Source of the DNA: Micrococcus cohnii
Lineage (GTDB): Bacteria > Actinomycetota > Actinomycetes > Actinomycetales > Micrococcaceae
Direction: 5' to 3'
Length of the DNA: 64,000 bases
NCBI RefSeq assembly: GCF_014205175.1
Contig: NZ_JACHNA010000001.1
Coordinates: 1,178,001-1,242,000 of the forward strand
This document shows positions 5,669-62,971 of this stretch, piece after piece. Below the pieces are notes generated by a model that ran no database searches, had not been told where the DNA came from, and saw only the letters and a program-made list of their open reading frames with translations. The position numbers and the translations under genes are program-made. Each line of letters begins with the position of its first letter. Positions within the stretch are counted from its first letter, which is position 1.

Positions 5669-6394
5669 TCACCGGGGCGCGTCGTCCGGGCTGCGCTCGG
5701 GGGTGTCGGGTTCGGGCACCTGATGGGCCTGCAGCCCACGTCCGGTGGCATAGGTGACCCCGTCGAGGAACGCCATCGCCTCGCCGTAGCGAGGAAACCG
5801 GTCGACCAGCCGGCGGAAGGCCCGGCCGTGGCCCGGTTCGATCAGGTGGGCCAGCTCGTGGACGAGCACGGCGTCCCGCACCCAGCCCGGCATCGGCGCC
5901 AGCTGAGCGCTGATGCGGATCCGCCGCGTCTCCGGGGTGCACGAGCCCCACCGGTGCCGCTGCCTCGTCGAGTACACGACCGCGCTCGGCGCCGGTGCCT
6001 CGGGCAGATGCCGGGCGCGCAGCTGTTCGGCCCGCCGACTCAGCTCGGCCTGCTCTTGCGCGTCCGGGCGCGCGGATACGTCCGCGGCCGGCAGCGGTCC
6101 CTGACCACGCGGGCCCGCGCCGTCTGCACCGACGGCCTCGGCACCGCTGCGGGACGCCGCGGGTGGGGCTTTGGCGATCATCGTGCGGATCCACGCGCGC
6201 TCCTCACCTCGGCCCAGTCCCGCCGGCATGAGCACCCGGAGCCGTCCCTGCCGCCAGGACGCGGAGATCGTCTTGCGTCGTGCGGTGGAGCGGACCAGCT
6301 CGATCGGGACGCCGTCGACGTCCAGCAGCTGGGTGCTGCGACGGGTCGGGGCCGAGCGACGGGCGGAGTGCGAAGAGGCTGGCATGCGGGCCAT
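5669..6394 (-). CDS. YgjP/DUF45-type M48-like metallopeptidase
   Basis: The product has 241 residues. The C-terminal half has the metalloprotease core HELAH (in VLVHELAHLIEPGHG), where the two His and the Glu would bind zinc and activate water; the third ligand is probably the His of PGHG. Upstream is the family signature RWGSCTPETRRIRIS (SprT/YgjP-like WGSC). The N-terminal part (VPIELVRSTARRKTISASW) resembles the beta-rich start of the family. ATG 6394 is chosen because the protein then begins just before this conserved region. It is convergent with the preceding gene and divergent from the ThiF-like gene. The physiological substrate is unknown for this family. Confidence 0.82.
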   Translation of the reverse strand: MARMPASSHSARRSAPTRRSTQLLDVDGVPIELVRSTARRKTISASWRQGRLRVLMPAGLGRGEERAWIRTMIAKAPPAASRSGAEAVGADGAGPRGQGPLPAADVSARPDAQEQAELSRRAEQLRARHLPEAPAPSAVVYSTRQRHRWGSCTPETRRIRISAQLAPMPGWVRDAVLVHELAHLIEPGHGRAFRRLVDRFPRYGEAMAFLDGVTYATGRGLQAHQVPEPDTPERSPDDAPR

Positions 6395-6541
6395 TGTCTC
6401 CGATGCCCGCCCCGCGCGACGCGGCTGAGCAGCACAGCAGGGGCGCGTCACCACGGCTGTGGACGACGCTCCCAGGGCCTGCGGGCGACGGGCACGCTGG
6501 TGGGCGAACACGTCGCACACCGGCAGAGAGGGACCCGTCAC

Positions 6542-7582
6542 ATGCGCATCGACCACCGATTCCGACCCGTGCAGATCGCCCCGGGCCACGTCCAGATCGG
6601 CACGGGACCGCAAGCGGTCCGCCTCGAGACCGAGGTACCCGGCGTGCCCACGCTGCTTGACGAGCTCACGGACGCGCAGGGCTGGACGGGCAGCCTGGAC
6701 GCGCTCGCGCGCCGCTGCGGGATCTCCGGGCCCGCGCTGAGGAGCCTGCTCAGACGACTGACGCCCGTGCTCGACCCACACGCGTCCGGGGACGCCTCCG
6801 AGGCCCCCGGCTGCCCGCCGGACGGTGGACCCCGGATGCCGGAGCAGGCGCAGGTGCTGGGCCTGGGCCGCACCGGCGCGGCGATCGTGCTCGCCCTGAC
6901 CGAGGCCGGCGTGCAGCGGCTCGCGCTCGGCGACGACTCCCCCGTCGGACTCGAGGACCTCGGCACCGGATTCGCCGCACGCGACGTCGGACATCCGCGT
7001 GCCGCGGCCCTGGCCCGCCGGGTGGACGAGCTGCAGCAGCGCGCCCTGTGCCTGCCCTGCCCGATGCCGCGCGAGTCCGGGCACGGGCCCGGCAGCGCAG
7101 AGCGCGCGCTCGGTCCCTGGCTCGGCGAGGTGACAGTCGTGGTCACTCGCGGTGCCTGGGACCCCGGCCTGCTGGCCCGCGCGGGCGCCGCCGGTCAGCC
7201 GACGCTGCCGGTCGTGCTCGACTCGACCGGGGCCGATGTGGGCCCGTGGTGTGCCCCCGGCGCGCCGGGGTGCCCGCTGTGCCTGGAGAGCGAACAGGAG
7301 CGCGATGACCCGCTGCGTGCTCGCCGTCTGCGGGCCCTGCGTCACGCCGGCGCGGGGCGGGAACCGATCGCGACGGCGCAGTCAGTCGCGGGCCTCGTGA
7401 CCCAGCTGCTGCACCGGGGTCCGTCCGCGACCGGCGGTCTCCGGTGGCGTCTGGACGACACGACGGACGGGCCCGCGCTGAGGCGCGCTCCGGTCTCCGC
7501 GCGCCCGGGGTGCGTGTGTGCCGTCCCCACGGACGTGTGGCTGGACGATGCGCAGGCCGCGGCGCTGCTGGGGGCGGTGTGA
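6542..7582 (+). CDS. ThiF/E1-like adenylyltransferase-fold protein with N-terminal winged-helix-like region
   Basis: The product has 346 residues. The start ATG 6542 follows an AGAGAGGGA ribosome site 8 bases away. Residues 1-80 (QIAPGHVQIGTGPQ, then RRCGISGPALRSLL) look like a small winged-helix domain. Residues about 100-230 hold a Rossmann core with GLGRTG in place of the usual GXGGXG and LGDDSPVGLEDLG where E1 enzymes bind ATP and magnesium. Cysteine pairs lie later (GCPLCLE, and CVC near the C-terminus), possibly structural zinc ligands. This architecture resembles the E1-like proteins of RiPP and TOMM systems, but no precursor peptide or cyclase gene lies beside it. Function is therefore unassigned. 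Confidence 0.72.
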   Translation: MRIDHRFRPVQIAPGHVQIGTGPQAVRLETEVPGVPTLLDELTDAQGWTGSLDALARRCGISGPALRSLLRRLTPVLDPHASGDASEAPGCPPDGGPRMPEQAQVLGLGRTGAAIVLALTEAGVQRLALGDDSPVGLEDLGTGFAARDVGHPRAAALARRVDELQQRALCLPCPMPRESGHGPGSAERALGPWLGEVTVVVTRGAWDPGLLARAGAAGQPTLPVVLDSTGADVGPWCAPGAPGCPLCLESEQERDDPLRARRLRALRHAGAGREPIATAQSVAGLVTQLLHRGPSATGGLRWRLDDTTDGPALRRAPVSARPGCVCAVPTDVWLDDAQAAALLGAV

Positions 7583-7613: not shown

Positions 7614-9776
7614 TCAGGCCGGCTGCGGGCCGTGGAGCAGTTCCAGCAGCTCGGGCCCGTAGCGTTCGAGCTTCTTCTGCCCCACCCCGGAGATGCGCAG
7701 CAGCTCGGCCGCGGTGCGGGGCATCGTCTCGGCGATCGCCACCAGCGTCGCGTCCGTGAAGATCACGAACGCCGGCTGCCGGGCCGCCTTCGCCTGGACG
7801 GAGCGCCAGTCCCGCAGCGCGTCGAGCACGTTCTCGTCATAGGTGGCCGGGCAGTCCAGGCAGCGGCCCAGCTTCCGTTCGGCGCCCGAGTCCAGCGGCT
7901 GCCCGCACGTGCGGCAGGTCTCGGCGGAGGCGGCGCGCCGCGATCGGCCTGGCCTGGACCGGTCCGCGGCCCCGCCCCGCCCGGGGGCGGTGGGGTCGAG
8001 AGTCCTCGTTCCACCCAGGGTTGGGTCGATCGCGCGCAGGAATCGGCTGGGCCGCCGCTTCGAGCGGCCGCCGGCGCGGGCAAGCGGCCACGTCAGGCAC
8101 AGGTGCCGTCGGGCGCGGGTGATTCCGACGTAGAGCAGGCGCCGCTCCTCATCGACGTCCTCGGCGGTGTCCGCGAAGGAGATCGGCATGAGCCCCTCGG
8201 TGAGCCCGACCAGGAACACGGCGTCCCACTCCAGGCCCTTGGCCGAGTGCAGGGAGGCCAGTGTGACGCCCTCGACGGCGGGCGCATGCTGGTTCTCGGC
8301 GCGGTCCTCGAGCTCGGCTACCAACACCGGCAGCGTGAACTCGTCTCCGCGTGCTTGAGCCAGCTGCTCGGCCAGCTGCACGAGGGCGTTCAGGGACTCC
8401 CAGCGCTCACGGTGGGCCCCCGAACCGGCCGGCGGCTCGGCCTCGTATCCGAGGCTGGCCAGCACGTCCCGGACCCGGTCGATCACGTCCGTGCCCGTCA
8501 GGTCCTGGGCCGAACGGGCGGCCGCGCGCAGCTGCAGGATGCCCTCGCGCACCTCACGCCGGGAGAAGAACCGTTCGCCGCCACGCAGCAGGTAGCCGAT
8601 TCCCGCAGCGGTCAGAGCCGTCTCGAACGCTTCGGACTGACCGTTGGTGCGAAAGAGCACCGCGATCTGCGAGGCCGGCACGCCCTGGTCGAGCAGCCCG
8701 CGGATCCGCTCGGCCACCCACCCGGCCTCCGCCTCGTCGTCGGCGCATTCGGCGAACTCGACGTCGGGACCGTTCTCTCGCTGGGCGACGAGTTCGAGCG
8801 GCTCGGGCCAGTGCGGCAGCGTCCGGTCTCGACGTCCCGCCGCGGTGCGGTCGGCCAGCAGCCGGTTGGCCGCCTGCACGATCTGCGGGGTCGAGCGGTA
8901 GTCGCGGATCAGTTTGATCTGTCTGGCCTCCGGGAATCGCTCGCGGAAGTCCGTCAGATACCGCGAGGTCGCGCCCGTGAACGAATAGATGGTCTGCGAG
9001 GAGTCGCCCACGACGCACAGGTCCTCGCGGCCGCCGAGCCACAGGTCCAGCAGCATGTGCTGCAGCGGGGAGACGTCCTGGTACTCGTCGACGACGAACA
9101 CCCGGTACTGCTCGCGGACCATGGCCGCCACGCGCGGCTCGTCCTGCAGCAGCCCGACGAGCACCAGCAGCACGTCCTCGTAGTCGAGCAGGTTCTGCGC
9201 CCCCTTGAGCTCCTCGTACCCGGCGTAGAGGCGGGCAATGGTCACGGGCGTCCATCCCGCCGGAAGATCCCGTCCGACGGCGGCCTGCGGGTACGACTCG
9301 GGTGTGTGCAGCGAGACCTTTGCCCACTCGATTTCCCCGGCCAGATCGCGCACCGCCGCCCGGTCCACGCTCATGCGCATGCGCTGGGCGACCTGCGTCA
9401 GCAGGCGCACCTTGTGTTCGACGAGACCGGGCATCGATCCGCCGATGGTGAACGGCCAGAAGTACTGCAGCTGACGCATGGCCGCTGAGTGGAACGTCCG
9501 GGCCTGCACGCCGTGCACACCCAGGTCCCGCAGCCGGGTGCGCATCTCGGCCGCCGCGCGCGCCGTGAACGTCAGGGCAAGAGTGCGGTGGGGGTCATAC
9601 ACGCCCGAGGCCACGCCGTAGGCGATGCGGTGGGTGATTGCCCGGGTCTTGCCGGTGCCGGCGCCCGCAAGGATGCAGACAGGCCCGTGCAGGGCGGTCG
9701 CGGCCTGGCGCTGCTCGGCGTCGAGGCCGCGGAGGATCTCGTCGGGCGAACTCACGGCGGACGCGGTCTCCTTCAC
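7614..9776 (-). CDS. uvrD2: ATP-dependent DNA helicase UvrD2 (SF1 helicase with zinc motif and HRDC domain)
   Basis: The product has 720 residues with the full UvrD/PcrA motif set: LAGAGTGKTRA (motif I), LTFTARAAAEM (Ia), VVDEYQD (II), GDSSQTIYSF (III), IRDYRSTPQI (IV), LHSAKGLEWDAVFLVG (V) and YVGITRARRHL (VI). After about residue 560 comes a basic, Arg-rich linker. A four-cysteine motif (CRTCGQ then CLDC, about 590-615) and a C-terminal HRDC domain ending near ISGVGQKKLERYG follow. The tetracysteine plus HRDC layout is that of mycobacterial UvrD2, which unwinds DNA 3'-5'. The start is GTG 9776. The nearby adnA-adnB pair repeats the mycobacterial gene neighbourhood. Confidence 0.92.
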   Translation of the reverse strand: MKETASAVSSPDEILRGLDAEQRQAATALHGPVCILAGAGTGKTRAITHRIAYGVASGVYDPHRTLALTFTARAAAEMRTRLRDLGVHGVQARTFHSAAMRQLQYFWPFTIGGSMPGLVEHKVRLLTQVAQRMRMSVDRAAVRDLAGEIEWAKVSLHTPESYPQAAVGRDLPAGWTPVTIARLYAGYEELKGAQNLLDYEDVLLVLVGLLQDEPRVAAMVREQYRVFVVDEYQDVSPLQHMLLDLWLGGREDLCVVGDSSQTIYSFTGATSRYLTDFRERFPEARQIKLIRDYRSTPQIVQAANRLLADRTAAGRRDRTLPHWPEPLELVAQRENGPDVEFAECADDEAEAGWVAERIRGLLDQGVPASQIAVLFRTNGQSEAFETALTAAGIGYLLRGGERFFSRREVREGILQLRAAARSAQDLTGTDVIDRVRDVLASLGYEAEPPAGSGAHRERWESLNALVQLAEQLAQARGDEFTLPVLVAELEDRAENQHAPAVEGVTLASLHSAKGLEWDAVFLVGLTEGLMPISFADTAEDVDEERRLLYVGITRARRHLCLTWPLARAGGRSKRRPSRFLRAIDPTLGGTRTLDPTAPGRGGAADRSRPGRSRRAASAETCRTCGQPLDSGAERKLGRCLDCPATYDENVLDALRDWRSVQAKAARQPAFVIFTDATLVAIAETMPRTAAELLRISGVGQKKLERYGPELLELLHGPQPA

Positions 9777-11009: not shown

Positions 11010-14000
11010 TCAGTCACCGGTGCGACCGAGCGCGTCGGCGAGGATCCGCTCGAGCGTCTCCTCGTCCGCCAGGTCTGTCATCCGCCGTTCGACGCCGTGG
11101 GCCACGTAGACGAACGAGGCGTCGATGTTCTCGATCGGAATCGCGTGCAGCCGCGACCACGCGAGCCGGTAGACGGCCAGCTGCAACCCCTTGAGTTCGA
11201 GTTCAGCTCCGGTGGGGACCGCTCCGGTCTTCCAGTCGACCAGCTCCCACCGGGCCTGCGGGTCGTACGGGTGGCCGGGCCGGGCGCCGTCACGGTAGAT
11301 CGCGTCGACGCGTCCGCGCAGGGTCAGCCCCGCCACGGTGGTCTCGACGGCGGCCTCGACGAACGCCGGGGTGCGGTCGGCCCACCGGGAGGCCAAGAAC
11401 CACTGCTTCATCGACTCCAGGTCCAAGGCGTCGTCCATCCACGCGTCGGCCGCATCCTGGGGGTCGTCGATGTCGAGCATGCCGGAGGCGTCGAAACGGT
11501 CCTCGAGCCAGGCGTGGAAGGCGGTGCCCCGTCGTGCGGCGTGGGCTGGCTGCCTGGGCATGGGGCGGCGCAGCTGGTCGGCCACCTTCTGCGGGTCCGA
11601 GGCCAGCTCGCCGTACAGAGACACCGAGACGTGACTGGGCAGGGCGACATGGTCGCTGGCCCCCTGCAGGCTCTTCTCGCGGCGCACGACCCAGTCCAGC
11701 TGACGGCCCAGCGTCGAGTCCGGATCGAGCGCGTCGGGCTCAGCCGCGCGGACGGCCCGGGCCGCGGCCTCGACCGCCGCTCTGCGCGGACGCGAGCGTC
11801 GCGGCAGGGGCCGCCACGCGTCCGTGGCGTCGGGGTCGTCGGGGTCGACCTCGTAGACCTCGGGCCCGTCGAGCGGGTCGAAGGGCCACAGGGCCGCGCG
11901 CACGCGGCCCAGCGCCGGGTTGGTCTCCGTCTGCTCGGACTCGTCGAGACGTCGTCCCCACTCGATGCCGGGGACCCGACCGACCAGCTGCGCGGCGTCG
12001 GTGAAGAAGTCCGAGGCCGGCGCGGGCCGGGTGACCGTGCCCTTCCAGCGGGTGGTGCTCAGCCACAGCTCACGGCGGGCGCGGGTGTACGCGACGTAGG
12101 CCAGACGTCGTTCATCGGCCAGGACGTGCTCGAACAGCAGGTCACGATGGTCTGGCACCTCGCCGACCTTCGCGCGCGAGGCCGCCATGAGCCGCTTCGA
12201 ACTGCCGAACCAGTCGCGCTGGTCCTCCGCCCAGGAGGGATCCCACTGCGGCAGGGCGCGCGCGTCCCCGCGCAGCGGCCACGGCAGGGCGCCCGAGCCC
12301 TTGTCCATCCACGACGTGATGCGCGATGTGGAGGGGAACGTGGCCTGCAGAAGTCCGGGCACCGCCACGACGTCCCATTCAAGGCCCTTCGCGGCGTGCG
12401 CGGTGAGCACGGTGATCGCGTGCGGGTCCGGCTCCGCACCCTCGATGGGCAGGCCCTTCTCATGTTCCTCGGCCGACTCCACCCAGTCCAGGAAGGCGCG
12501 CAGCCGGCCCGGCCCGGCCGGGCCACGGGCGGCGAAGTCCCTCGCGACGTCCACGAAGGCGTTCAGGTGCCGTCGCGCCGAGACCGCCGACGTGCCGGGA
12601 CGGATCGCCAGCTCGACGTCCAGGCCCAGGCTGCGTTCGATCTCGGCGATCAGATCGGGCAGGTCGTCGTCCGCGCGGCGAGCGAGACGACGCAGCAGCT
12701 CGCGCAGTCTCCGCAGTCGGGCCAGCCCCTCCTCGGAGAACTGGGCGCCGTGCTGGCCACGCCATGTGCTGCGTTCTCCGGGCAGGTCGTCGACCGCTTC
12801 GAGCAGGACCGCGGCGTCGGCCTCTTCCTCGTCGCTGACCGGTTCCTCGGCCGGCTCCCCCGCCGCGCGGGCACGCAGTCGCGCCAGGAACCGGGCCCGC
12901 TCGGCGAGCAGGGCGAGGTCGGCGGTGCCGATGCGCCAGCGGGGGCCGGCGAGCAGGGTGAGCAGCCGGTCGGACCGGGTCGGGTCGGCAAGCAGGTGCA
13001 GCACACCGAGCACCTCGGCCACCTCGGGCAGGGTGAGCAGCCCGGTGAGTCCGAGCACCTCGTAGGGCACGCCCGCCTCGTCGAGGGCCGCGAGGATCGG
13101 GTCGAACTGGCTCCTGGTGCGGCACAGCACGGCTCGGGTGGGCGGCTCTGCGCCGGCCTCGCGGGCGTCGTCCGCGAGGGCGGCCAGCCGTGCGACGACG
13201 TCGGCGGCCTCCTCATGGTCGGTCAGGTGCTCGTCGAGGCGGACGTGGCCGGTCCCCGCCTCGGGCCGCGGACGCAGTGGACGCACCCGCACGGGGGCGT
13301 CGTCGGGCTGGGCCAGCGGGGCGACGACGGCGTTGGCCAGGTCGAGGATCGCGCGATCGTTGCGCCAGGCCACGGTGAGGTGGGAGACGGACGCCGGCGA
13401 GCGCTGAGCGGCCGTGTCCTCGGAACGGTCGACGACCGGGAAGGCGTGGGGGAACGTGAACAGCTGACCGGCCGAGGCCCCACGGAAGCCGTAGATCGAC
13501 TGGTGGGGGTCACCGACGGCGGTCACGCTGTGCCCGGCCCCCTCCCCCGCTGCGCCGAAGAGGCCGCTGAAGATCTGCATCTGCGCGTGTGAGGTGTCCT
13601 GGAACTCGTCGAGGAGCACGACGCGCCACCGGTCGCGTTCGAGCCGGCCCACCAGCGGCACCTCGGCCGCGATGGTCGCGGCGTGGCGCAGCAGGTCCCC
13701 GAAGTCCATGACCTCCGCCTCGGCCTTGGCCGCGGCGTACTGCTCGACCAGCTCGGCCATGACGCGCCGCGTGCGCAGGGACACCAGCAGCTCGTGCACG
13801 TCCTTCGTCGGCTCGGTCCGACGGCCCGCCGGCGGCAGGGACTGGCCGTGAGCGATCACCCCGTCGAGATACGCGACGACCTCCTCGGCGGTGCGCAGGT
13901 GCTCGGCCATGTCCGAGGAGAGACTGAGGGCGCCGGAGACCAGCGTGGACAAGGACGGCAGCCCTCCGGTGGCCTGCAGCCGGTCGATGGGCAGCTCGGA

Positions 14001-52904: not shown

Positions 52905-54800
52905 TCAGTAGGCGTACTCGCCCAGGGTGGCGAGCAGCTCGCGCCGCTGCTGGCGGCGCCGGGCCTGCTGGTCCGGATCCGGCACCGGGGCGGCGGCCAG
53001 AAGACGCCGCGTGTACTCGGCCTGCGGGGCGTGCAACACCTCGTTCGTGGTGCCCTGCTCGACCTGACGGCCGTCCTTGAGCACGAGAACCTTGTGCGCC
53101 AGCATGTCCACGACCGCGAGATCATGCGAGACGAACAGGCACGCGAACTCGTAGCGCTGCTGCAGCTCGGCGAACATGTCAAGCACCGCGGCCTGCACCG
53201 ACACGTCGAGCGCCGAGGTCGGCTCGTCGGCGATCAGCACCTCCGGGTCGAGGGTCAGCGCACGGGCGATCGAAATGCGCTGGCGCTGACCGCCCGAGAG
53301 CTCATGCGGGAACCGGTTGACCACCTCGCGCGGCAGCTTCACCGCGTCGAGCAGCTCATAGGCTCGCTCGAGCCGGGCCTTCCGATCCCCCACCCCGTGC
53401 ACGACCATCGGCTCGGTGATGATGTCGCCGATCGGGAAGCGCGGGTCGAGCGAGGCCGCCGGGTCCTGGAAGACGACGCCGATGCGCCGGCGCAGCTCGC
53501 GCTGCCGCTTGGCGGGCATGGCCGACAGGTCTTCCCCGTGGATCGTCAGCGAGCCCGCAGCGATGTTCAGCAGACCGAGCACCGACTTGGCGATCGTCGA
53601 CTTGCCCGATCCGGACTCGCCGACCAGTCCGAGGATCTCCCCCGGCGCGACGGTGAACGACACGTCGTGCACGACTCGCTTCTTCTTGCCGCGGTGGTCG
53701 TACTCGAGGTTCAGGTCCCTCGCCTCGATCGCGTACGTCGCCCGCGTCTGGGTCGCGGTGACCGGGGTCGGCTCGGCGACCTCGAACCCCTCCCCCAGGC
53801 GCGGCACGGACGAGAGCAGCCGCTGGGTGTACGGGTGCTGGGGCCGCTGCATCACCTGGTGCACGTGGCCGGTCTCGACGAGTTCGCCGTGCAGCATCAC
53901 GCACACGCGATCCGCCATGTCCGCGACCACGCCCATGTTGTGGGTGATCAGCAGGATGCCGGTGTTGAGCTTGTGCTTGAGCGAGCGCAGCAGCTCGAGG
54001 ATCTCGGCCTGCACGGTCACGTCGAGGGCCGTGGTTGGCTCGTCGGCGATGATGACCTTGGGCGAGCAGCTGATGGCCATCGCGATCACGATGCGCTGGC
54101 GCTGACCGCCGGAGAACTGGTGCGGGTACTGCTTGAGCCGGGCCTTCGCGTCCGGGATGCCGACCATGGTCAGCAGCTCGGCGGCGCGTTCGTCCGCGTC
54201 GGTGCCGAAGGCCAGCCCGTGCAGCTCGAGCGCCTCGGTGAGCTGATCGCCGACCGTGAGCACGGGGTTCAGCGCGGTCATCGGCTCCTGGAAGATCATG
54301 GCGACGTCCTTGCCGCGCTTGGCACGCAGCGCGGCGTCGGACATCTCCAGGACCTCCTCGCCGGCCAGGCGGACCGAGCCGGAGACCTCCGCGTTCTTGG
54401 GCAGCAGGCCCATCGCCGTGGAGCTGGTGACGGACTTGCCCGAGCCGGACTCGCCCACCAGGGCGACGATCTCGCCGGGCGCCACGTCGAAGCTGACGCC
54501 CTTGACCGCGTGGACCTCGCCGAACTCCGTGGCGAAACGCACGTTCACATCCTCGTACGAGAGCACGGGAGTGCCGTCGTCGTCATGGCGTTCGACGACG
54601 CCGATGGCGCTGGTGGCCGGGCCCGGGGTGAGCCCGCCCTCGCGGTAGTCGGCCTGGCCGAGCGCGGGCCGCGGCCCGGTGCTCGGCTCCGCCACCTGGC
54701 CGGTGCCGTCGGAGTCCGACGCCGTCGCGGCCGCGGGGGCGTCCTCGTGCGCCGCGGTGTCCGCGGTCGAGGCCGTCGCCTTCTTCTTGTTTCCGAACAT
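52905..54800 (-). CDS. Fused double ATPase of an oligopeptide/dipeptide ABC transporter
   Basis: The product has 631 residues with two complete nucleotide-binding domains in one chain. NBD1 (about 65-330): [42 protein letters not shown]2 (about 350-600): [43 protein letters not shown]. In most species these are separate DppD and DppF proteins. Each has the oligopeptide-type C-terminal extension ([24 protein letters not shown]). The N-terminal 65 residues are acidic and disordered. It ends the binding-protein/permease/permease/ATPase operon. Confidence 0.93.
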
Positions 54801-54827
54801 GAGGGTCTCTTCCTTCTCGACTCCGCC

Positions 54828-56003
54828 TCAGCGGGTCGCGCCCTCGGGCGCGTCGGTGTCGGGTCCGTCGGTGTCAGGCGCGTCCGGGCGCGGCGCGTGG
54901 TCGGCCTGGTCGGAGTGCGCGGACTGCTGTGCGGCCTTGCCGCGGCCGGAGATCCCGGCGAGCCCCCGCCGACGTCGGGCGGCATTGGACTGGCGCGGGT
55001 CGAACGCGTCGCGCAGCCCGTCGCCGAGGAAGTTCACGGACAGGGCGATCGCGAGGATCATCATGCCCGGCCACCAGAACAGCCACGGCCGGGTGGTGAA
55101 CGCGTTCTGGTACTGGCTGATGAGCAGACCCAGGGAGGACTCGGGCGGGCGGACGCCGAAGCCCAGGTACGACAGCGAGGTCTCCAGCAGCACGGCCGCG
55201 GCGATCGCGAACGTCGCGTTCACGACGATCACGCCCACCGTGTTCGGCAGCAGGTGCTTGAAGATGATGCGCCCGGGCTTGGCGCCCATTGCGACCGCGG
55301 CGGAGACGAACTCCTTCTCGCGCAGCGAGAGCACTTCACCGCGCACCAGGCGGGCCAGCGCCGTCCAGGTCACCAGGCCGAGGACGATCGCCAACGGCAC
55401 GATGCCTCCGGGCAGCTGGCTGGACATCTTGCCCAGCACCGCGGCGAGCACGAGCAGGGGAATCACGATGACCAGGTCGGTCAGGCGCATCAGCAGCGAG
55501 TCGATCCAGCCGCCGAAGTAGCCGGAGACCGCGCCGATCAGGGCGCCGAGCGCGGTGGAGACGATGCCCACGATGAACGCGATGATCAGCGACTGCTGCG
55601 TGCCGCGCATCACGAGGGCGAACCAGTCCTTGCCGGTGGAGTCCTGACCGAAGGGATGCTCGCCCCAGCGGATGCCCTCACCGCCCAGGAACTGCGGCAC
55701 GAGAGAGAGGGTCGGTCGGCCGCCGTTCTGCACGGTGGCCGCGTCGAGGTAGGACTTGTCCCACCAGCCGGGGATGCCCGCGAAGCCGATGGACGTGAAC
55801 GCCAGCAATGTCACCAGACTCAGCACCACGAGCGAGATCATGGCCGCTTTGTGCGCGAAAAAGCGCTTGCGGACCAGCTGACCCTGGCTGTAGGACTTGC
55901 CGGTCTTGGCTCGCAGCTTGGCGTCTTCGGCTTCGGCGAGGTCGAAGGACTGCTGCTGGTCGGCCTGCTGGGCCGTCTGGGAGGTGGTGGTCATGGCGAT
56001 CAC
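54828..56003 (-). CDS. Oligopeptide ABC transporter permease, DppC/OppC type
   Basis: The product has 391 residues from GTG 56003, which overlaps the upstream permease stop as GTGA; ATG 55994 is the alternative. N-terminal cytoplasmic residues rich in Gln/Glu precede TM1 (AAMISLVVLSLVTLLAF), a periplasmic loop, and five further TM helices. The EAA loop reads FVSAAVAMGAKPGRIIFKHL. The C-terminal 60 residues are disordered (RRRRGLAGISGRGKAAQQ, then Asp/Pro-rich). It pairs with the adjacent DppB-like protein to form the channel. Confidence 0.92.
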   Translation of the reverse strand: MIAMTTTSQTAQQADQQQSFDLAEAEDAKLRAKTGKSYSQGQLVRKRFFAHKAAMISLVVLSLVTLLAFTSIGFAGIPGWWDKSYLDAATVQNGGRPTLSLVPQFLGGEGIRWGEHPFGQDSTGKDWFALVMRGTQQSLIIAFIVGIVSTALGALIGAVSGYFGGWIDSLLMRLTDLVIVIPLLVLAAVLGKMSSQLPGGIVPLAIVLGLVTWTALARLVRGEVLSLREKEFVSAAVAMGAKPGRIIFKHLLPNTVGVIVVNATFAIAAAVLLETSLSYLGFGVRPPESSLGLLISQYQNAFTTRPWLFWWPGMMILAIALSVNFLGDGLRDAFDPRQSNAARRRRGLAGISGRGKAAQQSAHSDQADHAPRPDAPDTDGPDTDAPEGATR

Positions 56004-57526
56004 ACTCGAATCCGGGGGTCAAGGAGGGCGTAGAACACGTCCGCCATCAGGTTCATCAGCACGGCCGCGGTGCCCGTGACCAGGAAGAAGGCCATCACGG
56101 GCGCCGGGTCGACCTGGTCGAGGCCGGTGGCGAACAGCTCGCCCATGCCCTTCCAGCCGAAGACGCGCTCGGTGATGACGGCACCGCCGATCAGACCGGC
56201 GAAGTCGAAGGCCATGATCGTGGTGATCGGGATCAACGAGTTGCGGAAGGCGTGCTTGAGGATCACCTGGCGCTCAGGCAGGCCCTTGGCTCGCGCGGTG
56301 CGAATGTAATCCTGCCGGGAGACCTCGAGCATCGAGGCACGCGTGTAGCGCGAGTAAGTCGCCACGGAGATGATCGTCAGCAGGATGGTCGGCAGCAGCA
56401 GCTGCGCGCCCTTGTCCAGGAACTGCACCCAGAACGGCTCGTCGAAGTTCGGTGTCTCCGAGCCGATCGTGGAGATCGGCCGGGACTTCGCGCTGAGGAA
56501 CGCTGGCCAGTACAGGGCCAACGTGTCGGCGACGATGGTGACCGCCATGAACAGCGCCGTGGTGACGGAGACCGCCACTGCCGAGCCCTTCGAGGTCTTG
56601 CCCATCAGGCGGCCGATCAGCACGCCGACCAGCACGGTGACCACGCCGAGCACGGCCAGCAGCCACCACGAGGCCTGGGCCCACAGCAGCCCCGAATAGC
56701 GCAGCACGGTGAAGACGAGGACGCCGACGAGAACGGTCGCCAGTCCGGCGTGCAGCACGGGACGATTGCGCAGACCGGAGACGATCGCGGTGGCGGCGAC
56801 CGCCGCACCGAGGCCGACGAGGATCACGGCCGGGTAGCCGAGCACGGGCGTGCGCCAGAAGTCCAGGGCGTGCAGAAGCGGGATCACACCGAGCACGAAC
56901 GCGGCGGTGGCGAGGAACGTGAACAGGCGTCGCTTCGCCCCGCCGCCCATCGCGCCCTGCAGCGCGAGGCCGAGAACGACCGCGGCGACGATCAACAACC
57001 CCCAGTTCAAGGTGGGGCTCGCGATCCAGTTGTTGAAGCCGATCGCCATGTACTCCTTGAGCAGGACCGCCGCCCAGAACACCGGCAGGGAGAAGAACAG
57101 GAAGATCAGGAACGTGACGGCGTAGTCGAGCCCCGAGTACTGGCGGATCGCGGTGATGATGCCGACGGCGACGCCGATGATGATCGCGAGCACGGTGGCC
57201 AGGATGACCAGGCGCAGCGTGGAGCTCGCGGCGTTCTGCAGCAGCGTGAGCACAGGCTGACCCGACCGGTTCAGGCCGAGGTCGCACTGGCCCACGACGC
57301 AGCCGCCGACTCCCTTGAGCCAGTCGAAGTATCGGACGAACCACGGCTGGTCGAGCCCCATGAACTCGGTGCGGGCCGCCATGAGGGTCTCGCGGTTGTT
57401 GCTCTGCGACTCGCGCAGGTCTTTGAGGGGGTCACCGGAGTTGATGACCAGGACAAACAGGAGGACGGAGGCGCCGAACAGGACCAGCAGCGAGCTGGCG
57501 AGACGCTTGAGGATGAACTTCAGCAC
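56000..57526 (-). CDS. Oligopeptide ABC transporter permease, DppB/OppB type, with large membrane insertion
   Basis: The product has 508 residues, about 180 more than usual. The ends are ordinary DppB: FILKRLASSLLVLFGASVLL, the periplasmic GLDQPWFVRYFDWLKGV, and the EAA loop VSRQDYIRTARAKGLPERQV. Between roughly residues 165 and 340 an extra block carries about five or six hydrophobic helices (GLLIVAAVVLGLALQGAM, FTFLATAAFVLGVIPLL, PAVILVGLGAAVAATAIV and others). No frameshift is evident. The start is GTG 57526. It follows the binding protein after a 184-base gap containing a hairpin. Confidence 0.9.
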   Translation of the reverse strand: MLKFILKRLASSLLVLFGASVLLFVLVINSGDPLKDLRESQSNNRETLMAARTEFMGLDQPWFVRYFDWLKGVGGCVVGQCDLGLNRSGQPVLTLLQNAASSTLRLVILATVLAIIIGVAVGIITAIRQYSGLDYAVTFLIFLFFSLPVFWAAVLLKEYMAIGFNNWIASPTLNWGLLIVAAVVLGLALQGAMGGGAKRRLFTFLATAAFVLGVIPLLHALDFWRTPVLGYPAVILVGLGAAVAATAIVSGLRNRPVLHAGLATVLVGVLVFTVLRYSGLLWAQASWWLLAVLGVVTVLVGVLIGRLMGKTSKGSAVAVSVTTALFMAVTIVADTLALYWPAFLSAKSRPISTIGSETPNFDEPFWVQFLDKGAQLLLPTILLTIISVATYSRYTRASMLEVSRQDYIRTARAKGLPERQVILKHAFRNSLIPITTIMAFDFAGLIGGAVITERVFGWKGMGELFATGLDQVDPAPVMAFFLVTGTAAVLMNLMADVFYALLDPRIRV

Positions 57527-57639
57527 AACAGGGGTGACCTTCCGTGCACGGAGGTGGTGAGCATCATGAGGCGGGCGCGACGAGTGCGTCGGCGTGGAGA
57601 CGGTCGGGGCCGGGCCGCAGGGGTGTCGGCCCCGACGCC

Positions 57640-57677
57640 GGAGGGCGCGGGCTCATCGAAGACGGCCCGCGCCCTCC
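57640..57677 (-). terminator. Hairpin between peptide-binding protein and first permease
   Basis: GGAGGGCGCGGGC and GCCCGCGCCCTCC make a perfect 13-bp stem with a 12-base loop in the 184-base gap. Position suggests partial termination, so the binding protein would be made in excess over the permeases, as is common for ABC systems. Confidence 0.65.
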
Positions 57678-57710
57678 CCTGACCGGCGCGTCTGCGCGCC
57701 GCGACTCAGA

Positions 57711-59444
57711 TCACTCGGAGCGGGTCCACTTCTCGACGTTCCACAGGGCGCCGGACTGCGTGGCGGCCTGCTCGACGTTCTCGAGGTTCGCGGAGTGGCC
57801 GACGATGCCCGGGTGCGCGTACAGCGGGATGGCCTGGTAGTCCTCCCACAGCAGCTTCTCGATCTCGGCGACCTTCTCCTTCTGCTTGTCCTCGTCGAGT
57901 TCGGAGGCAAGCTCGTCCCAGGCCTTGTCCACCTTCTCGTTGGAGTACTTCACCTGGTTCTGCTTGCCGGAGGAGTGGTAGATGTTCCGGCCCGAGGCCT
58001 TCTGACCGGAGCCGGACCACGCGAACAGGGCCACGTCGAAGTCACCGGCGGGCATGACCTCGGTGAAGAAGTTCTCGTCGCCGGCGTCCTTGATCTCGAA
58101 GCCGGCCTCATCGCACGAGCTCTTGATCAGCGAGACGGTCTCTGTGCGGCGCTGGTTGCCGTTCTGGTAGCCGACACGGATCGTCGTGCCCTCGGCGCCG
58201 GCCTCCTTCAGCAGCTGCTTGGCCTTCTCGACGTCGGCCTCACCGGACTGCATCTGCTCCGGGACGGCCTCCTTCACGATGTCCTCGTAGCCGTCCTGGA
58301 ACGGGAACACCTCGCGCAGGTTCATCACCTCGGCGTCGTCGACGATCGGCTTGACGAGGTTGTCGACGATCTGCTGACGCGGCACGCACAGCGCGAACGC
58401 CTCACGCACCTTCTCGTCGTTGAACGGGGAGCCGTCGCCGCGGTAGAAGTCCAGGTGCTCCCAGGTCATCAGGTCGCCGGTCTGGACCTTCGCCTGGTCA
58501 CCGAGCCCCTCGAGCTGCTTCATGGTGTCGACGGTGGCCTGCGGCTCGATCACATCGATGTCGCCGTTCTGCAGCGACTGCACGTGCGTCTCCGGGGCGG
58601 CCATCTTGATGACCAGCTCCTCGATGCCCGGCTTCTCGCCCCAGTACTTGTCATTGGCCTCGAGGGTGATCGACTGGCCGGCCTGCCAGCCGTCTTCCTT
58701 GATCTTGTACGGGCCCATCGAGGGGATCTTGCTCTGGTCGGGCAGCTTGCCGGGCTTGAAGTCCCAGCCCTCGTTCCAGAACTTCGCGGCCTTCTCGAGC
58801 TTGTCCGCGTCCTTCTCCCGGGCCGCCTCGACGAGCTCCTCGAACTCCATGCCCGACTCCTCCGCGATCACGTGCGCGGGAAGGGCGGTGTTGATCAGGA
58901 TCTCCCAGTCGGCATACGGCTGGTCATAGGTAACGGTGAACTTCTTGCCCTTGGGGTCACCCTTCGGGGCCTGCTTGATGTAGGTGCCCGGGTCCGAGGT
59001 GATCGAGTCGAACAGCGGGGTCTCGCCGTCCTCCTTCGTGATCTCCGGGTTGTCGGCGGCCCACTGCACGATGAAGTCGCCGGCGGTCACGTCGGTGCCG
59101 TCGGACCACTTCGCGTCCTCGCTGATCTCGTACTCGACCGTGAGCGGGTCATCCGAGACCTTCTTGTACGTGCCGAACTCCTCGTTGCGGACGATCTCGC
59201 CCTTGGGGCCGAAAGTCCAGAAGCTGGAGAACAGGCGGTCCACGACGGCCGAGTTGTACGTGGAGTAGGTGTTCGACTGGACGCCGTTGTACGAGGCGAA
59301 TTCGTCGGCGCCCACGGAGTAGGAGACGCTGCCGCCGCCCTCCTCCTTCTTCGCGTCCGCCGGCCCGGCGGGAGCGCAGGCGGACAGGACCAAAGCCGAG
59401 CCGGCGGTCAGGGCGGCCGCCGCCGAGAGCTTCGAGTGCTTCAT
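57711..59444 (-). CDS. Family 5 (oligopeptide/dipeptide) substrate-binding lipoprotein
   Basis: The product has 577 residues. The lipoprotein signal is KLSAAAALTAGSALVLSAC with lipobox LSAC, followed by a Gly/Glu linker. The body is the DppA/OppA fold: IVRNEEFGTYKKVSDDPLTV, YEISEDAKWSDGTDVTAGDF and FNDEKVREAFALCVPRQQIV. It captures peptides outside the membrane for the permeases encoded downstream. Lys/Glu are used more than in neighbours, as is usual for secreted proteins here. ATG 59444 follows GGAG. A palindrome-rich control region lies upstream (59560-59625). Confidence 0.93.
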   Translation of the reverse strand: MKHSKLSAAAALTAGSALVLSACAPAGPADAKKEEGGGSVSYSVGADEFASYNGVQSNTYSTYNSAVVDRLFSSFWTFGPKGEIVRNEEFGTYKKVSDDPLTVEYEISEDAKWSDGTDVTAGDFIVQWAADNPEITKEDGETPLFDSITSDPGTYIKQAPKGDPKGKKFTVTYDQPYADWEILINTALPAHVIAEESGMEFEELVEAAREKDADKLEKAAKFWNEGWDFKPGKLPDQSKIPSMGPYKIKEDGWQAGQSITLEANDKYWGEKPGIEELVIKMAAPETHVQSLQNGDIDVIEPQATVDTMKQLEGLGDQAKVQTGDLMTWEHLDFYRGDGSPFNDEKVREAFALCVPRQQIVDNLVKPIVDDAEVMNLREVFPFQDGYEDIVKEAVPEQMQSGEADVEKAKQLLKEAGAEGTTIRVGYQNGNQRRTETVSLIKSSCDEAGFEIKDAGDENFFTEVMPAGDFDVALFAWSGSGQKASGRNIYHSSGKQNQVKYSNEKVDKAWDELASELDEDKQKEKVAEIEKLLWEDYQAIPLYAHPGIVGHSANLENVEQAATQSGALWNVEKWTRSE

Positions 59445-59753: not shown

Positions 59754-60647
59754 TCAGCGATGCAGGAGGCGGCGACGGCCAAGCACGAAGAAGCTCAGAT
59801 ACGCGACGCCCGAGGTGTTGTAGGGGAAATGAATCCCCATCACCGCGCGGATCCCCCCGTGCATCCCCCACGCGCCCAGCGCGAAGAGGCGGCCGATGCT
59901 CGGGTGCACCAGCGCCGCCGGCGCCGCGAGCTCAACCACCAGCGCACCGGCGGCCAACGCCGTGAACAGACGCCGCCGTGAATACAAGGTGACCCCGAGG
60001 TCCTGCTTGGACGAGCCGAACAGGTCCTTACGCAGGCCGTCCACGGCGATCTGTCCGCGCAGCACGTCGCCGCCGGCCCACCGCAGCCCCAACTCACTGC
60101 GGACCTTCGCGACGCCGCAGATCAGGTAGACCGCAGCGCTGGCGGTGTTCATGGCCACCGGCACGGCTCCGTACCGACGCGCGGCGACGTCGCGGAGGTG
60201 CCAACGGCCGCGCACGAGGGCGTCGACGCTCCACGCATCCGCAGACCGCGTGCAGCCCAGGACCGCCTGGTGAAGCACCACCATGTTGTCGTTGTGCAGC
60301 ACCATGCCCCAGGAGTTCCGGTACGCGGTGGTCCAGATCTGCAGGGCGGCGTTCACCGGGCCGGTGACACGGTGGGCCAGGCCCAGGGTCGCCGCCACGT
60401 TGACGACCTGCGCCAGGTCGAACACGGCGTCGGCGACCGCCGGGGGCAGCGGACGCGAGAGCACGCGGCACGGACCCACGGGCGCGAACCGGTCCGGCTC
60501 CTGCGCGTGCACGCGTTGGAACATCCGCCGACGCCGGAACTGGCGCGCCGCGGCGTATCCGCCGACCGCCAGCCGCAGCAGCGCGGGTCGAGTGGCCGGC
60601 AGCACCGGACGCAGCGTGTCCATCAGTCGCAGTGCCACGGGACTCAT
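59754..60647 (-). CDS. HTTM-domain membrane protein (gamma-carboxylase-like fold)
   Basis: The product has 297 residues with about six hydrophobic segments, including AVADAVFDLAQVVNVAATLG, MVLHNDNMVVLHQAVLGC, AVYLICGVAKVRSELG, FTALAAGALVVELAAPAALV and AYLSFFVLGRR. The pattern, with WAGGDVLRGQIAVD and GIRAVMGIHFPYN, fits the HTTM (horizontally transferred transmembrane) domain, related to vitamin-K-dependent gamma-carboxylase but without its catalytic part. ATG 60647 overlaps the preceding gene's stop as ATGA. It is last in a three-gene operon with an FAD oxidoreductase. Its chemical role is unknown. Confidence 0.8.
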   Translation of the reverse strand: MSPVALRLMDTLRPVLPATRPALLRLAVGGYAAARQFRRRRMFQRVHAQEPDRFAPVGPCRVLSRPLPPAVADAVFDLAQVVNVAATLGLAHRVTGPVNAALQIWTTAYRNSWGMVLHNDNMVVLHQAVLGCTRSADAWSVDALVRGRWHLRDVAARRYGAVPVAMNTASAAVYLICGVAKVRSELGLRWAGGDVLRGQIAVDGLRKDLFGSSKQDLGVTLYSRRRLFTALAAGALVVELAAPAALVHPSIGRLFALGAWGMHGGIRAVMGIHFPYNTSGVAYLSFFVLGRRRLLHR

Positions 60648-61369
60648 GGGCGGACCTCCTCAACACCGCGCGCACCGTAGGTCTCTGCGACCTGGCTTGC
60701 GGTCCTCTTCTGCTGCACCGCCTGGGCGACGCCGCCGACCGGGGCGACGGCGTGGACGGTCTCCCGGTGCGGGCGACGCAGACCGGCGTAGTACTCCTCG
60801 AAGCGGAAGCGCGAGCGCACCACCTCGACACGCTCGATGCAGGCTTCCTGGCGCCGTCGCTCTCGTCGCCGGCCCGCGGCCGAGGCGACACTGCCGCGTA
60901 CCTGGGCCTGCGTCTGCGCCAGCGAATCCGCGTAGGCCTGGGCCACCCGCACCGCTTCACCGCGGCGCACCGCTCGGGAGACCTGTCGACGCACCTGGTT
61001 CAGCCCGCCCGGGCCGAAATGCGCGAACGAGGGGATGACCCTGTCGCCGTCGGCGGTGTACCCCACCACGTGCGGGACGTACGTCGACCGGCCCCGCGCC
61101 TCGGAGAACATCGGGAAGGTCGACAGGGGGAACGAGTCCCGCGTGAACTTCGGAGCGTCTCTGCCGCTGAGCGGCGGTCGGGCGTAGTGGCGCAGGGGGC
61201 TGAGCAGCACCCCGGCACCGATGGCGCCGACGGCCAGGCCGAACCAGTCGGCGCGGGTCGGCGGGGGCCGGTCGACGGCCCGGTGCGGTGTGTGGTGAGT
61301 GACCTCATGGATATCTGCCTCTCGTGTGAGCTCGGTGTTGGTGCGGTGATGGAACGATGTGAGGGGCAC
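60644..61369 (-). CDS. HTTM-partner protein with one membrane helix and FPMFS motif, function unknown
   Basis: The product has 241 residues from GTG 61369 (no clear ribosome site; start uncertain). One membrane helix (ADWFGLAVGAIGAGVLLSPL) is followed by DSFPLSTFPMFSEARGRSTY and VPHVVGYTADGDRVIPSF, a motif block I associate with proteins next to HTTM genes, then an Arg-rich helical region. It overlaps the HTTM gene by ATGA, so the two are made together and probably form a membrane complex. I can give no enzymatic function. Confidence 0.7.
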   Translation of the reverse strand: MPLTSFHHRTNTELTREADIHEVTHHTPHRAVDRPPPTRADWFGLAVGAIGAGVLLSPLRHYARPPLSGRDAPKFTRDSFPLSTFPMFSEARGRSTYVPHVVGYTADGDRVIPSFAHFGPGGLNQVRRQVSRAVRRGEAVRVAQAYADSLAQTQAQVRGSVASAAGRRRERRRQEACIERVEVVRSRFRFEEYYAGLRRPHRETVHAVAPVGGVAQAVQQKRTASQVAETYGARGVEEVRP

Positions 61370-61376
61370 GGCCGGG

Positions 61377-61432
61377 GTTCAGCGGCCGGGGTTCAGCGGC
61401 CCGGGCTCAGAGGCCGAGGCTCAGCGGCCCGG
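61377..61432. repeat. Four tandem 14-bp imperfect repeats spanning a stop codon
   Basis: Units: GTTCAGCGGCCGGG, GTTCAGCGGCCCGG, GCTCAGAGGCCGAG, GCTCAGCGGCCCGG. They fill the 51-base gap between the FAD oxidoreductase and the FPMFS gene and run into the last codons of the oxidoreductase. Every unit contains TCA, i.e. TGA on the coding strand; the first one read is the actual stop. Confidence 0.8.
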
Positions 61433-62971
61433 CGTCGTGGCCCGGCCGGCGTGCAGGTCGGCCAGCGCGGTGCGGACCGCCCAGGCCCCGGCCATGCCGT
61501 GCACTCCCGCGCCGGGAGCGGTCGAGGCCGAGGCCAGGTAGACCCCGGGCCGCCCCGCCTGGGGACGCACCAGCCGGTGGGGCCGCAGGGCCGGACGCGG
61601 ACGGGCCGCCAGCTGCAGCCCGGCCATCGATCCGCCGGCGATGTCCCCGCCGACCAGGTTCGGGTTCCACTGCTCGAGCTGGGCGGGCCGGGTCTCGACG
61701 GCGCGCACGACGGTGTCGCGGAAGCCGGGGGCGAAGCGTTCGATCTGCTCCTCGATGCGCGCTCGGACCGCCCCCGCATAGCCGAGCGGCACATGGGCGT
61801 AGGTCCACAGCACCGTGTGTCCGGCCGCCTCGGCGACGGCCCGCGACGGGTCGGCGGCCTGCTGCTGGCAGACCATGACGAAGGGCCGCTCGGGCATGCG
61901 GCCGGCGAGCGCGTCGGCCTCGGCGCGGCTGAGGTGTTCGGCTGTGCCCCCGACGTGCACCGTTCCCGCGCCGCGCAGCCGCTCGTCCCGCCACGGCACG
62001 GGCTCGCTGAGCAGGAAGTCGACCTTGGACACGCCTGAACCGTGCCGCCACCGCGAGAGGGGTGCTCGGACGGGCGTGGGCATGAGGTCGCCGGCCAGAG
62101 CGACCGCCTGGGCCGGCGTCGTGTCGAGCAGGACCAGGTCGGCCGACGACAGCTCGCGCAGGTCGGTGACCCGGTGGCCGAGGTGCACCCGGCCGCCGTG
62201 AGCGGTCAGGACGGACAGCAGCGCGGCGACGATCGCACCGGACCCGCCCTCGGCCACGGGCCAGCCGGTGCTCATGCCCAGACCGCCGAACAGGGTGCCG
62301 AAGGCGGCGGTCAGCGGTCGGCCGGGCGGCAGGATCGCGTGCACGGCGGAGCCGGTGAACAGCGCCCGGGCCTGGTCGGTACGGAACGCGGCGCGTGCGG
62401 CGACCGTGGCCGACCACGGGGCACGCAGGCCGAATCGGACCATGCCGAGCGGCCGAGGCCAGGCACGGGCCAGCGGTCCGAGCACGTTCAGCGCTGTGCC
62501 GTACGGGTCCTGCACCACCGGTGCGTGCCACGCCCGCCACGCGGTCTGGTCCTCGCCGAGCCCCTCGGCGGTTCGCTCGAGGTCGCGGTACAGCAGTGCC
62601 GCCTCGCCGCCCTCGAGCGGGTGCCCCAGCACGACCGGCGGGTGCCGCCAGCGCAGGCCGTGCTCGCTCAGGCGCAGCTCGTGGAACGCGGGGCTGACGG
62701 CGCCGAAGGGGTGACCGGCGGCGCCAAGGTCGACCGTCGTGCCCGCGCCCAGGGTGTCTCCCGAGGCGCTCGCTCCACCCGGCAGCGCGTGAGCTTCGTA
62801 GACGTCCACCTCCCAGCCGGCTCGGGCCAGCAGTGCCGCGGCGGTCAGCCCGTTCGGCCCGGACCCGACGACAGCGGCCCGGCCCGGCTCTGCCGCCTCG
62901 GGCAGGGTGAAACCGGGGCGGTTTAGGTCATCGGCTCGAGAGCCGCCGGACTGGTCAGATCGCGTCATCAT
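61421..62971 (-). CDS. FAD-dependent oxidoreductase, phytoene-desaturase-like (CrtI/BBOX type)
   Basis: The product has 516 residues. The dinucleotide motif AAVVGSGPNGLTAAALLARA (Gly36-Gly41) is followed by the conserved YEAHALPGGASAS loop. A C-terminal FAD segment GVYLASASTAPGAGVHGMAG is typical of the phytoene-dehydrogenase-like family. Central motifs are GGLGMSTGWPVAEGGSGAIVA and LLDTTPAQAVALAGDL. It has no carotenoid genes around it; instead it heads the operon with the FPMFS and HTTM genes. Start codons 62971 and 62968 are adjacent ATGs. Its stop codon lies in a 14-bp tandem repeat. Confidence 0.87.
   Translation of the reverse strand: MMTRSDQSGGSRADDLNRPGFTLPEAAEPGRAAVVGSGPNGLTAAALLARAGWEVDVYEAHALPGGASASGDTLGAGTTVDLGAAGHPFGAVSPAFHELRLSEHGLRWRHPPVVLGHPLEGGEAALLYRDLERTAEGLGEDQTAWRAWHAPVVQDPYGTALNVLGPLARAWPRPLGMVRFGLRAPWSATVAARAAFRTDQARALFTGSAVHAILPPGRPLTAAFGTLFGGLGMSTGWPVAEGGSGAIVAALLSVLTAHGGRVHLGHRVTDLRELSSADLVLLDTTPAQAVALAGDLMPTPVRAPLSRWRHGSGVSKVDFLLSEPVPWRDERLRGAGTVHVGGTAEHLSRAEADALAGRMPERPFVMVCQQQAADPSRAVAEAAGHTVLWTYAHVPLGYAGAVRARIEEQIERFAPGFRDTVVRAVETRPAQLEQWNPNLVGGDIAGGSMAGLQLAARPRPALRPHRLVRPQAGRPGVYLASASTAPGAGVHGMAGAWAVRTALADLHAGRATTPGR

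Follow-up and report, generated by a model that had tools for sequence, protein, structure and literature searches.

What can a flavoenzyme be doing in an actinobacterial operon whose two other products are membrane proteins, one of them reminiscent of a vitamin K-dependent carboxylase? The question is raised by a stretch of 64,000 nucleotides from Micrococcus cohnii (C1:1178001-1242000 of a 2.28 Mb genome in a single contig; hereafter the window), which carries three genes encoding a CrtI-like oxidoreductase dependent on flavin adenine dinucleotide (FAD), a small protein bearing an FPMFS motif (the FPMFS protein) and an integral membrane protein of the HTTM type. A preliminary description made from the letters alone had placed the three genes on one strand, the last two being joined by an ATGA overlap, an arrangement confirmed here by the coordinates and by reading of the plus strand. 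It had also suggested a membrane complex in which the flavoenzyme supplies redox power to the two membrane proteins. A survey of related loci indicates that what stays constant is the FPMFS-HTTM pair, the FAD gene being optional.

The FPMFS-HTTM pair

To recover related loci, a collection holding one genome per species (84,980 species) was scanned with an HTTM alignment. Among the 130 relatives obtained, the 80 best, retrieved via two sequence patterns, were kept as loci; two contigs are present in duplicate among the loci studied (L075 = L121 and L076 = L129). The FPMFS gene was found just upstream of the HTTM gene and on the same strand in 74/80 loci. Five of the six other loci begin within 273 nt of a contig end, and only L132 is truly devoid of FPMFS. 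According to the titles of the sequence records, the pair spans seven phyla (Actinomycetota, Chloroflexi, Acidobacteria, Planctomycetes, Bacteroidetes, Gemmatimonadetes and Deltaproteobacteria/Myxococcales). Three further samples were used, made up of 396 genomes for the phylum, 198 for the order and 61 for the family, and an HTTM match was obtained in 31 genomes of the phylum sample.

The HTTM protein is predicted to adopt the transmembrane fold of the vitamin K-dependent gamma-carboxylase GGCX, with all of its 297 amino acids falling within this fold. The relation to the membrane part of the carboxylase, already proposed in the preliminary description, was recovered both by profiles and by modelling. 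A nine-row profile of HTTM relatives matched the solved GGCX chains (E 6.1e-6), as did a seven-row profile including classical HTTM proteins (E 7.7e-11). An AlphaFold2 model computed from 59 rows (pLDDT 93.2, pTM 0.90) was compared with the PDB using Foldseek, and the top 16 matches were all GGCX (TMq 0.42-0.65, probability 1.00). VIA-align gave Z scores up to 17.0 (GGCX 9wf3, root-mean-square deviation of 3.8 Å over 263 residues), compared with 5.2 for the highest-scoring unrelated chain. In the profile alignments, K181 falls on the catalytic Lys218 of GGCX, W190 on Trp223, and H263 beside Phe286. PMC12589487 describes Lys218 as the base deprotonating the hydroquinone, and W223, H160 and F286 as lining the naphthoquinone pocket, in which bound MK-4 hydroquinone was observed. 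Seven residues of the HTTM protein (S112, H118, Y174, K181, W190, E239 and H263) are invariant in 59/59 rows; because the 80 loci were fetched through two patterns, conservation inside these patterns is partly selected, which concerns S112 and H263, located within the patterns used for most rows, H118, Y174, K181, W190 and E239 lying outside them. Taken with the predicted fold, the alignment of K181 and W190 suggests that the HTTM protein may make use of a quinol.

The FPMFS protein was modelled with one transmembrane helix (about residues 39-62) followed by an alpha/beta domain (pLDDT 83.4). It displays the three features of its family, namely the helix, the FPLSxYPMF motif and a site just upstream of HTTM, and the residues invariant in a 54-row alignment include D78, F80, P81, S83 and M87. 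The family profile was based on 72 called proteins of 145-225 amino acids, without those of 189 and 192 amino acids and with one HTTM fragment (L088) included; the motif pattern was matched by 70 of these 72 proteins, one of the two misses being the HTTM fragment. A divergent set of partners with WPLTxWRLFS-like (FxLFS) motifs, as in L014, appeared homologous to FPMFS (probability 93.4, E 2.4e-7). Comparison of the model with solved folds gave no clear match (best Foldseek E 1.1, best VIA-align Z 3.7), so that the fold is neither known nor shown to be new. An NCBIfam scan produced no match for the FPMFS protein.

Two candidate identities were rejected for FPMFS. Comparison with SdpA (TIGR04034) gave an hhalign E of 0.27 in addition to the absence of an NCBIfam match, and no SdpA was detected in the source genome under conditions in which the B. 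subtilis control was positive. Comparison with DUF5819 (PF19136) gave no Pfam match and an hhalign E of 0.048 with a probability of 1.1, no DUF5819 being found in the source genome. In Pseudonocardia (L127), two 491-amino-acid proteins (591-2066 and 5824-7299) are encoded directly upstream of FPMFS-HTTM pairs. They combine a membrane part containing an HKLN lysine motif with a C-terminal SMFSNLRTEQ-like stretch, and resemble HTTM-FPMFS fusions. The protein encoded at 5824-7299 had no Pfam or NCBIfam match, and its hhalign comparison with FPMFS was insignificant.

In the window, the FAD and FPMFS genes are separated by 51 nt, and a promoter and terminator scan was uninformative. The HTTM gene is followed, on the same strand, by an oligopeptide-type ATP-binding cassette (ABC) importer (52905-59444) consisting of a solute-binding protein, two permeases and an ATPase. 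The same importer families also follow HTTM in L101, and the first two of them in L114, while genes of a size similar to those of the importer are found after HTTM in L193, L195 and L197.

Table 1. Coordinates and main characteristics of the operon in the window
Feature	Position	Strand	Characteristics
FAD-dependent oxidoreductase, CrtI-like; optional redox part	61421-62971	minus	516 aa; Pfam NAD_binding_8 and Amino_oxidase
FPMFS protein, partner of HTTM	60644-61369	minus	241 aa; GTG start; FPLSTFPMFS motif
HTTM-type integral membrane protein; predicted GGCX transmembrane fold	59754-60647	minus	297 aa
ATGA overlap between FPMFS stop and HTTM start	60644-60647	minus	CTCATGGGC on the plus strand at 60643-60651

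Redox proteins encoded next to the pair

The FAD-FPMFS-HTTM order was detected by tblastn in 14/80 loci, with FAD identities of 48-71%. These loci belong to Micrococcaceae, Microbacteriaceae and one Geodermatophilaceae metagenome-assembled genome (MAG), all with the same order and strand, and the arrangement was found again in three more genomes of the family (L193, L195 and L197). In G130, a genome from the order of the source organism, the FAD gene and an FxLFS-HTTM pair are arranged divergently. The preliminary description had made its three-gene operon depend on the genes occurring together elsewhere, and since the operon is conserved in other genomes, it withstood this survey. The operon is nevertheless not the constant unit, as the FAD gene is absent from 66/80 HTTM loci.

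The best solved relative of the FAD family profile is the phytoene dehydrogenase 4dgk (E 2.7e-14). The designation CrtI-like is appropriate in this respect, but the protein scored 44.8 bits against the CrtI family (TIGR02734), far under the cut-off of 238.1. No CrtI above this cut-off was found in the source genome, whereas 4/14 control genomes exceeded it. The carotenoid explanation is therefore unsupported. A tree was built with 19 HTTM-linked FAD proteins and 29 homologues for which no such linkage is known. Three changes of this label, which could be either gains or losses, account for the tree; at least two are forced by supported branches, while shuffled labels required 15.2 changes on average and none of 500 shuffles was as low. 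The linked proteins are strongly clustered, in three places of the tree.

A second kind of redox protein is associated with the pair. A DCC1-like (PF04134) thiol-disulfide oxidoreductase is fused to HTTM, or encoded directly downstream, in 29/80 loci, and the FAD and DCC1-like genes are found together in 0/80 loci. FAD and DCC1-like proteins could thus be redox partners exchanged for one another. The presence of a redox protein at many loci fits with the earlier proposal of a flavoenzyme feeding the two membrane proteins; its complex, the direction of its electron flow and its lipid or quinone target are putative. Quinone redox by VKOR is also available in the source genome, since it holds two VKOR-family genes.

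Some of the DCC1-like genes located beside HTTM contain an in-frame TGA at the CxxC motif, as observed in L075 (about 3000-3396), L076 (about 8980-9367), L138 (about 2150-2511) and L141 (about 1040-1440). The corresponding pattern is UxxU in L075, L076 and L141, and UxxC in L138. A tRNA-Sec above the Rfam cut-off was detected in the genomes of L075 (G581, 63.2 bits) and L076 (G345, 70.6 bits). Judging from these sequences, the UGA-bearing DCC1-like proteins are a candidate selenoprotein family; a term search for PF04134, COG3011, DCC and DUF393 in the main text of a 2026 selenoproteome review (PMC13188914) found none of them. In a Pseudonocardia MAG (L117:2969-4522), a 517-amino-acid protein encoded between HTTM and the P-loop protein X43, described below, reads like an amine-oxidase-type flavoprotein and may represent yet another type of redox partner.

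X43, the ABC-type protein and a proposed function

Two more parts, both outside the window, extend the system beyond what the preliminary description had recognised: the P-loop protein X43 and an ABC-type transporter. Clustering of the neighbouring genes covered 107 loci, and X43 was present in 43 of them, and in 41 of the 80 loci of the HTTM scan. Among these 41 loci, 39 also have an ABC hit, located within 300 nt in 26 cases, the ABC cluster (58/107) mixing in other ABC proteins. The consensus P-loop of X43 is GTSMNSGKTTT, and the family is weakly related to DUF1611, BioD and MobB. In the source genome, X43 and an ABC-type gene are found at C1:2241889-2244908, about 1 Mb from the window. In Yaniella halotolerans DSM 15476 (L096), by contrast, a single cluster unites all five genes. 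In the family sample, HTTM was detected at E 1e-10 or better in 6/61 genomes and X43 in 6/6 of these, as compared to 16/61 overall (hypergeometric 1.4e-4, or 5.5e-4 without the source genome, relatedness being ignored here and below). In the order sample, a strong HTTM was present in the source genome, G118 and G146, and X43 in 3/3, as compared to 10/198 overall (9.4e-5, or 1.9e-3 without the source genome). Combining both samples, X43 is present in 8/8 distinct HTTM genomes, and is physically unlinked to HTTM in at least four of them (the source genome, G609, G118 and G146). In Bacteroidetes (L143-L168, Aquimarina and relatives), subtilase, CHAT-TPR and DUF2490 genes accompany X43, FPMFS, HTTM-DCC1 and ABC.

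With somewhat less than even confidence, we propose a membrane enzyme of two subunits that resembles GGCX, is probably coupled to a quinol and works with an exchangeable redox partner, and whose substrate would be handled by X43 and the ABC-type protein. The HTTM protein would be the transmembrane catalytic core, K181, the counterpart of the lysine deprotonating vitamin K hydroquinone in GGCX, being placed in a pocket in which the position of the quinone-ring tryptophan is kept. FPMFS, as a one-helix anchor, would provide the part located outside the membrane. To activate and modify its substrate, exported or bound to the membrane, the enzyme would most likely rely on menaquinol or a comparable quinol, perhaps together with oxygen. 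The FAD enzyme in the window and, elsewhere, a DCC1-like protein with cysteine (or a UGA-encoded residue, probably selenocysteine) would fulfil the same role, maintaining the appropriate redox state of the cofactor or of the substrate. X43, with its DUF1611/BioD/MobB-like P-loop, and the ABC-type protein would prepare or move the substrate.

Several observations weigh against this proposal. The HTTM protein of the window scored 15.2 bits with Pfam HTTM (PF05090), under the gathering cut-off of 27.7, so that its name rests on family profiles and on the fold; relatives in L011, L012 and L013 are above this cut-off, and those in L009, L010 and L014 slightly below. The position of GGCX Lys217 is occupied by A180, a nearly invariant alanine, and His160 of the Glu/quinone pocket aligns one residue away from the invariant H118. 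FPMFS could not be identified as the detached linker/propeptide-binding region of GGCX (396-519), the hhalign score of 16.5 being reached by 5/200 shuffles and 12/300 decoys. The register likening PMF to MM at GGCX 401-402 is attractive but insignificant, and the divergent FxLFS set likewise gave no support. HTTM relatives with other roles also exist, as in SdpAB and linaridin clusters.

The distribution of the partners raises similar reservations. Since all 14 FAD loci are actinobacterial, the mutual exclusion of FAD and DCC1 is confounded by phylogeny, and among loci L095-L132 (38 in number and, going by record titles, almost entirely actinobacterial) DCC1 is present in just 3. Many loci carry neither gene, the pair is found without FAD within the locus in a Micrococcus (L099), and the FAD family was absent from all 20 other HTTM neighbourhoods retrieved from the phylum sample (L075-L094). 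In the same sample, 148/396 genomes encode a homologue of the FAD protein (E 1e-40 or better), which argues against a general FAD-HTTM link. Four genomes of the order with a weak HTTM (G021, G069, G071 and G130, E 7e-9 to 7e-4) are not X43-positive; conversely, this HTTM is lacking in 10/16 and 7/10 of the X43-positive genomes of the family and of the order, respectively. Finally, neither a Walker A nor a signature motif could be recognised in the ABC-type protein of the source genome (C1:2243076-2244908 = L191:11077-12909). Both motifs are also missing from the partners in L096 and L134 and are kept in L116 and L145; judging from these sequences, a loss of ATPase function in Micrococcaceae is possible.

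It is doubtful, in our opinion, that the FPMFS-HTTM pair is a bacterial split vitamin-K-type carboxylase/epoxidase, in which menaquinol and oxygen would generate a strong base via K181. X43 and the ABC-type protein would prepare an exported substrate for carboxylation, or for some other activation at a carbon acid, and the oxidised quinone would be recycled by the flavin enzyme here and by the DCC1-like Cys/Sec protein elsewhere, in the manner of VKOR in animals, where the GGCX chemistry is established. In the reports consulted on bacterial HTTM relatives (SdpAB and a linaridin cluster), their requirement is shown or assumed and the reaction is left undefined. The pair offers concrete components in this respect, with K181 as a candidate catalytic residue, a putative two-protein complex and a possible cofactor, and quinol-driven base chemistry may be older and wider than the formation of Gla.

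Alternatively, HTTM and FPMFS might act on a ribosomal peptide, as SdpAB and the linaridin HTTM proteins, the peptide being exported by the ABC protein and oxidised by the FAD enzyme, which we regard as rather unlikely. According to PMC6818787 and PMC13343845, SdpA and SdpB are required for SDP maturation, and a linaridin cluster described in PMC9927463 includes an HTTM protein. In the same direction, the HTTM profile matched an actinobacterial HTTM-type protein of L207, which occupies the SdpB position beside a TIGR04034 hit, with the conserved lysine aligned (probability 92.6, E 4.7e-7), the ABC protein of L076 has MsbA and peptide exporters as its closest matches, although below all cut-offs, and a subtilase is present at some loci. 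However, a screen of 2581 non-genic open reading frames (ORFs) of 22-160 amino acids near the module revealed no recurrent peptide precursor, and FPMFS has no detectable relation to SdpA. The small ORFs recurring in at least three loci were either tRNA-like (L191, L194, L196, L201, L204 and L205, with confirmation by Rfam in L191 alone, at 13889-13977) or within closely related DNA.

We also consider unlikely that a quinone, a polyprenol or a lipid is itself the substrate, remodelled by HTTM/FPMFS with FAD or DCC1. In favour of this reading, CrtI-like flavoenzymes act on isoprenoids, and the closest match of the L076 ABC protein is MsbA. Moreover, PMC12589487 describes how the GGCX fold accommodates the quinone, isoprenyl tail included, in a tunnel within the membrane. 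On the other hand, among the recurrent neighbour clusters that were listed, a minority of them scanned with Pfam, nothing was recognisable as a gene for making lipids or quinones, and X43 has no known link to lipids. Lastly, that the FAD gene is an unrelated neighbour, encoding a carotenoid or other desaturase, and that only FPMFS and HTTM belong together is improbable: its absence from most HTTM loci and the frequency of its family without this HTTM would be expected, but not the order and strand conserved over several families, the divergent arrangement in G130, the clustering on the tree or the lack of a CrtI above cut-off in the source genome.

Comparison with known systems

GGCX, SdpAB and linaridin HTTM proteins are already known, and the FPMFS-HTTM pair and its operon look undescribed: no paper was found on HTTM beside FAD, X43 or an ABC protein, FPMFS and X43 having no searchable published names. 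The CrtI-type phytoene desaturases are the nearest solved relatives of the FAD family, but the FAD protein is well below their cut-off and is linked to HTTM/FPMFS rather than to carotenoid genes. X43 has the same kind of P-loop as DUF1611, BioD and MobB, from which it differs by its own N-terminal domain and by scores under the cut-offs of all matched families. In the DUF5819 and HTTM pairs of actinobacteria (L012 and L013), a small partner anchored by a transmembrane segment adjoins the HTTM gene as in the window, but the DUF5819 and FPMFS profiles have no significant match. SdpA/SdpB of Bacillus subtilis and relatives likewise associate an HTTM-type protein, with its lysine aligned, with a small membrane-anchored partner. 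FPMFS is however unrelated to SdpA by profile, no precursor gene was found nearby, and the partners are X43, ABC and FAD or DCC1. Compared with GGCX, the HTTM protein of the window has no known Gla substrate, its chain is without the C-terminal propeptide-binding domain and Lys217 is not kept. It is predicted to share the transmembrane fold over its whole length, it keeps the positions of Lys218 and Trp223, and it is accompanied by a separate small partner, FPMFS, with FAD or DCC1, X43 and ABC as neighbours.

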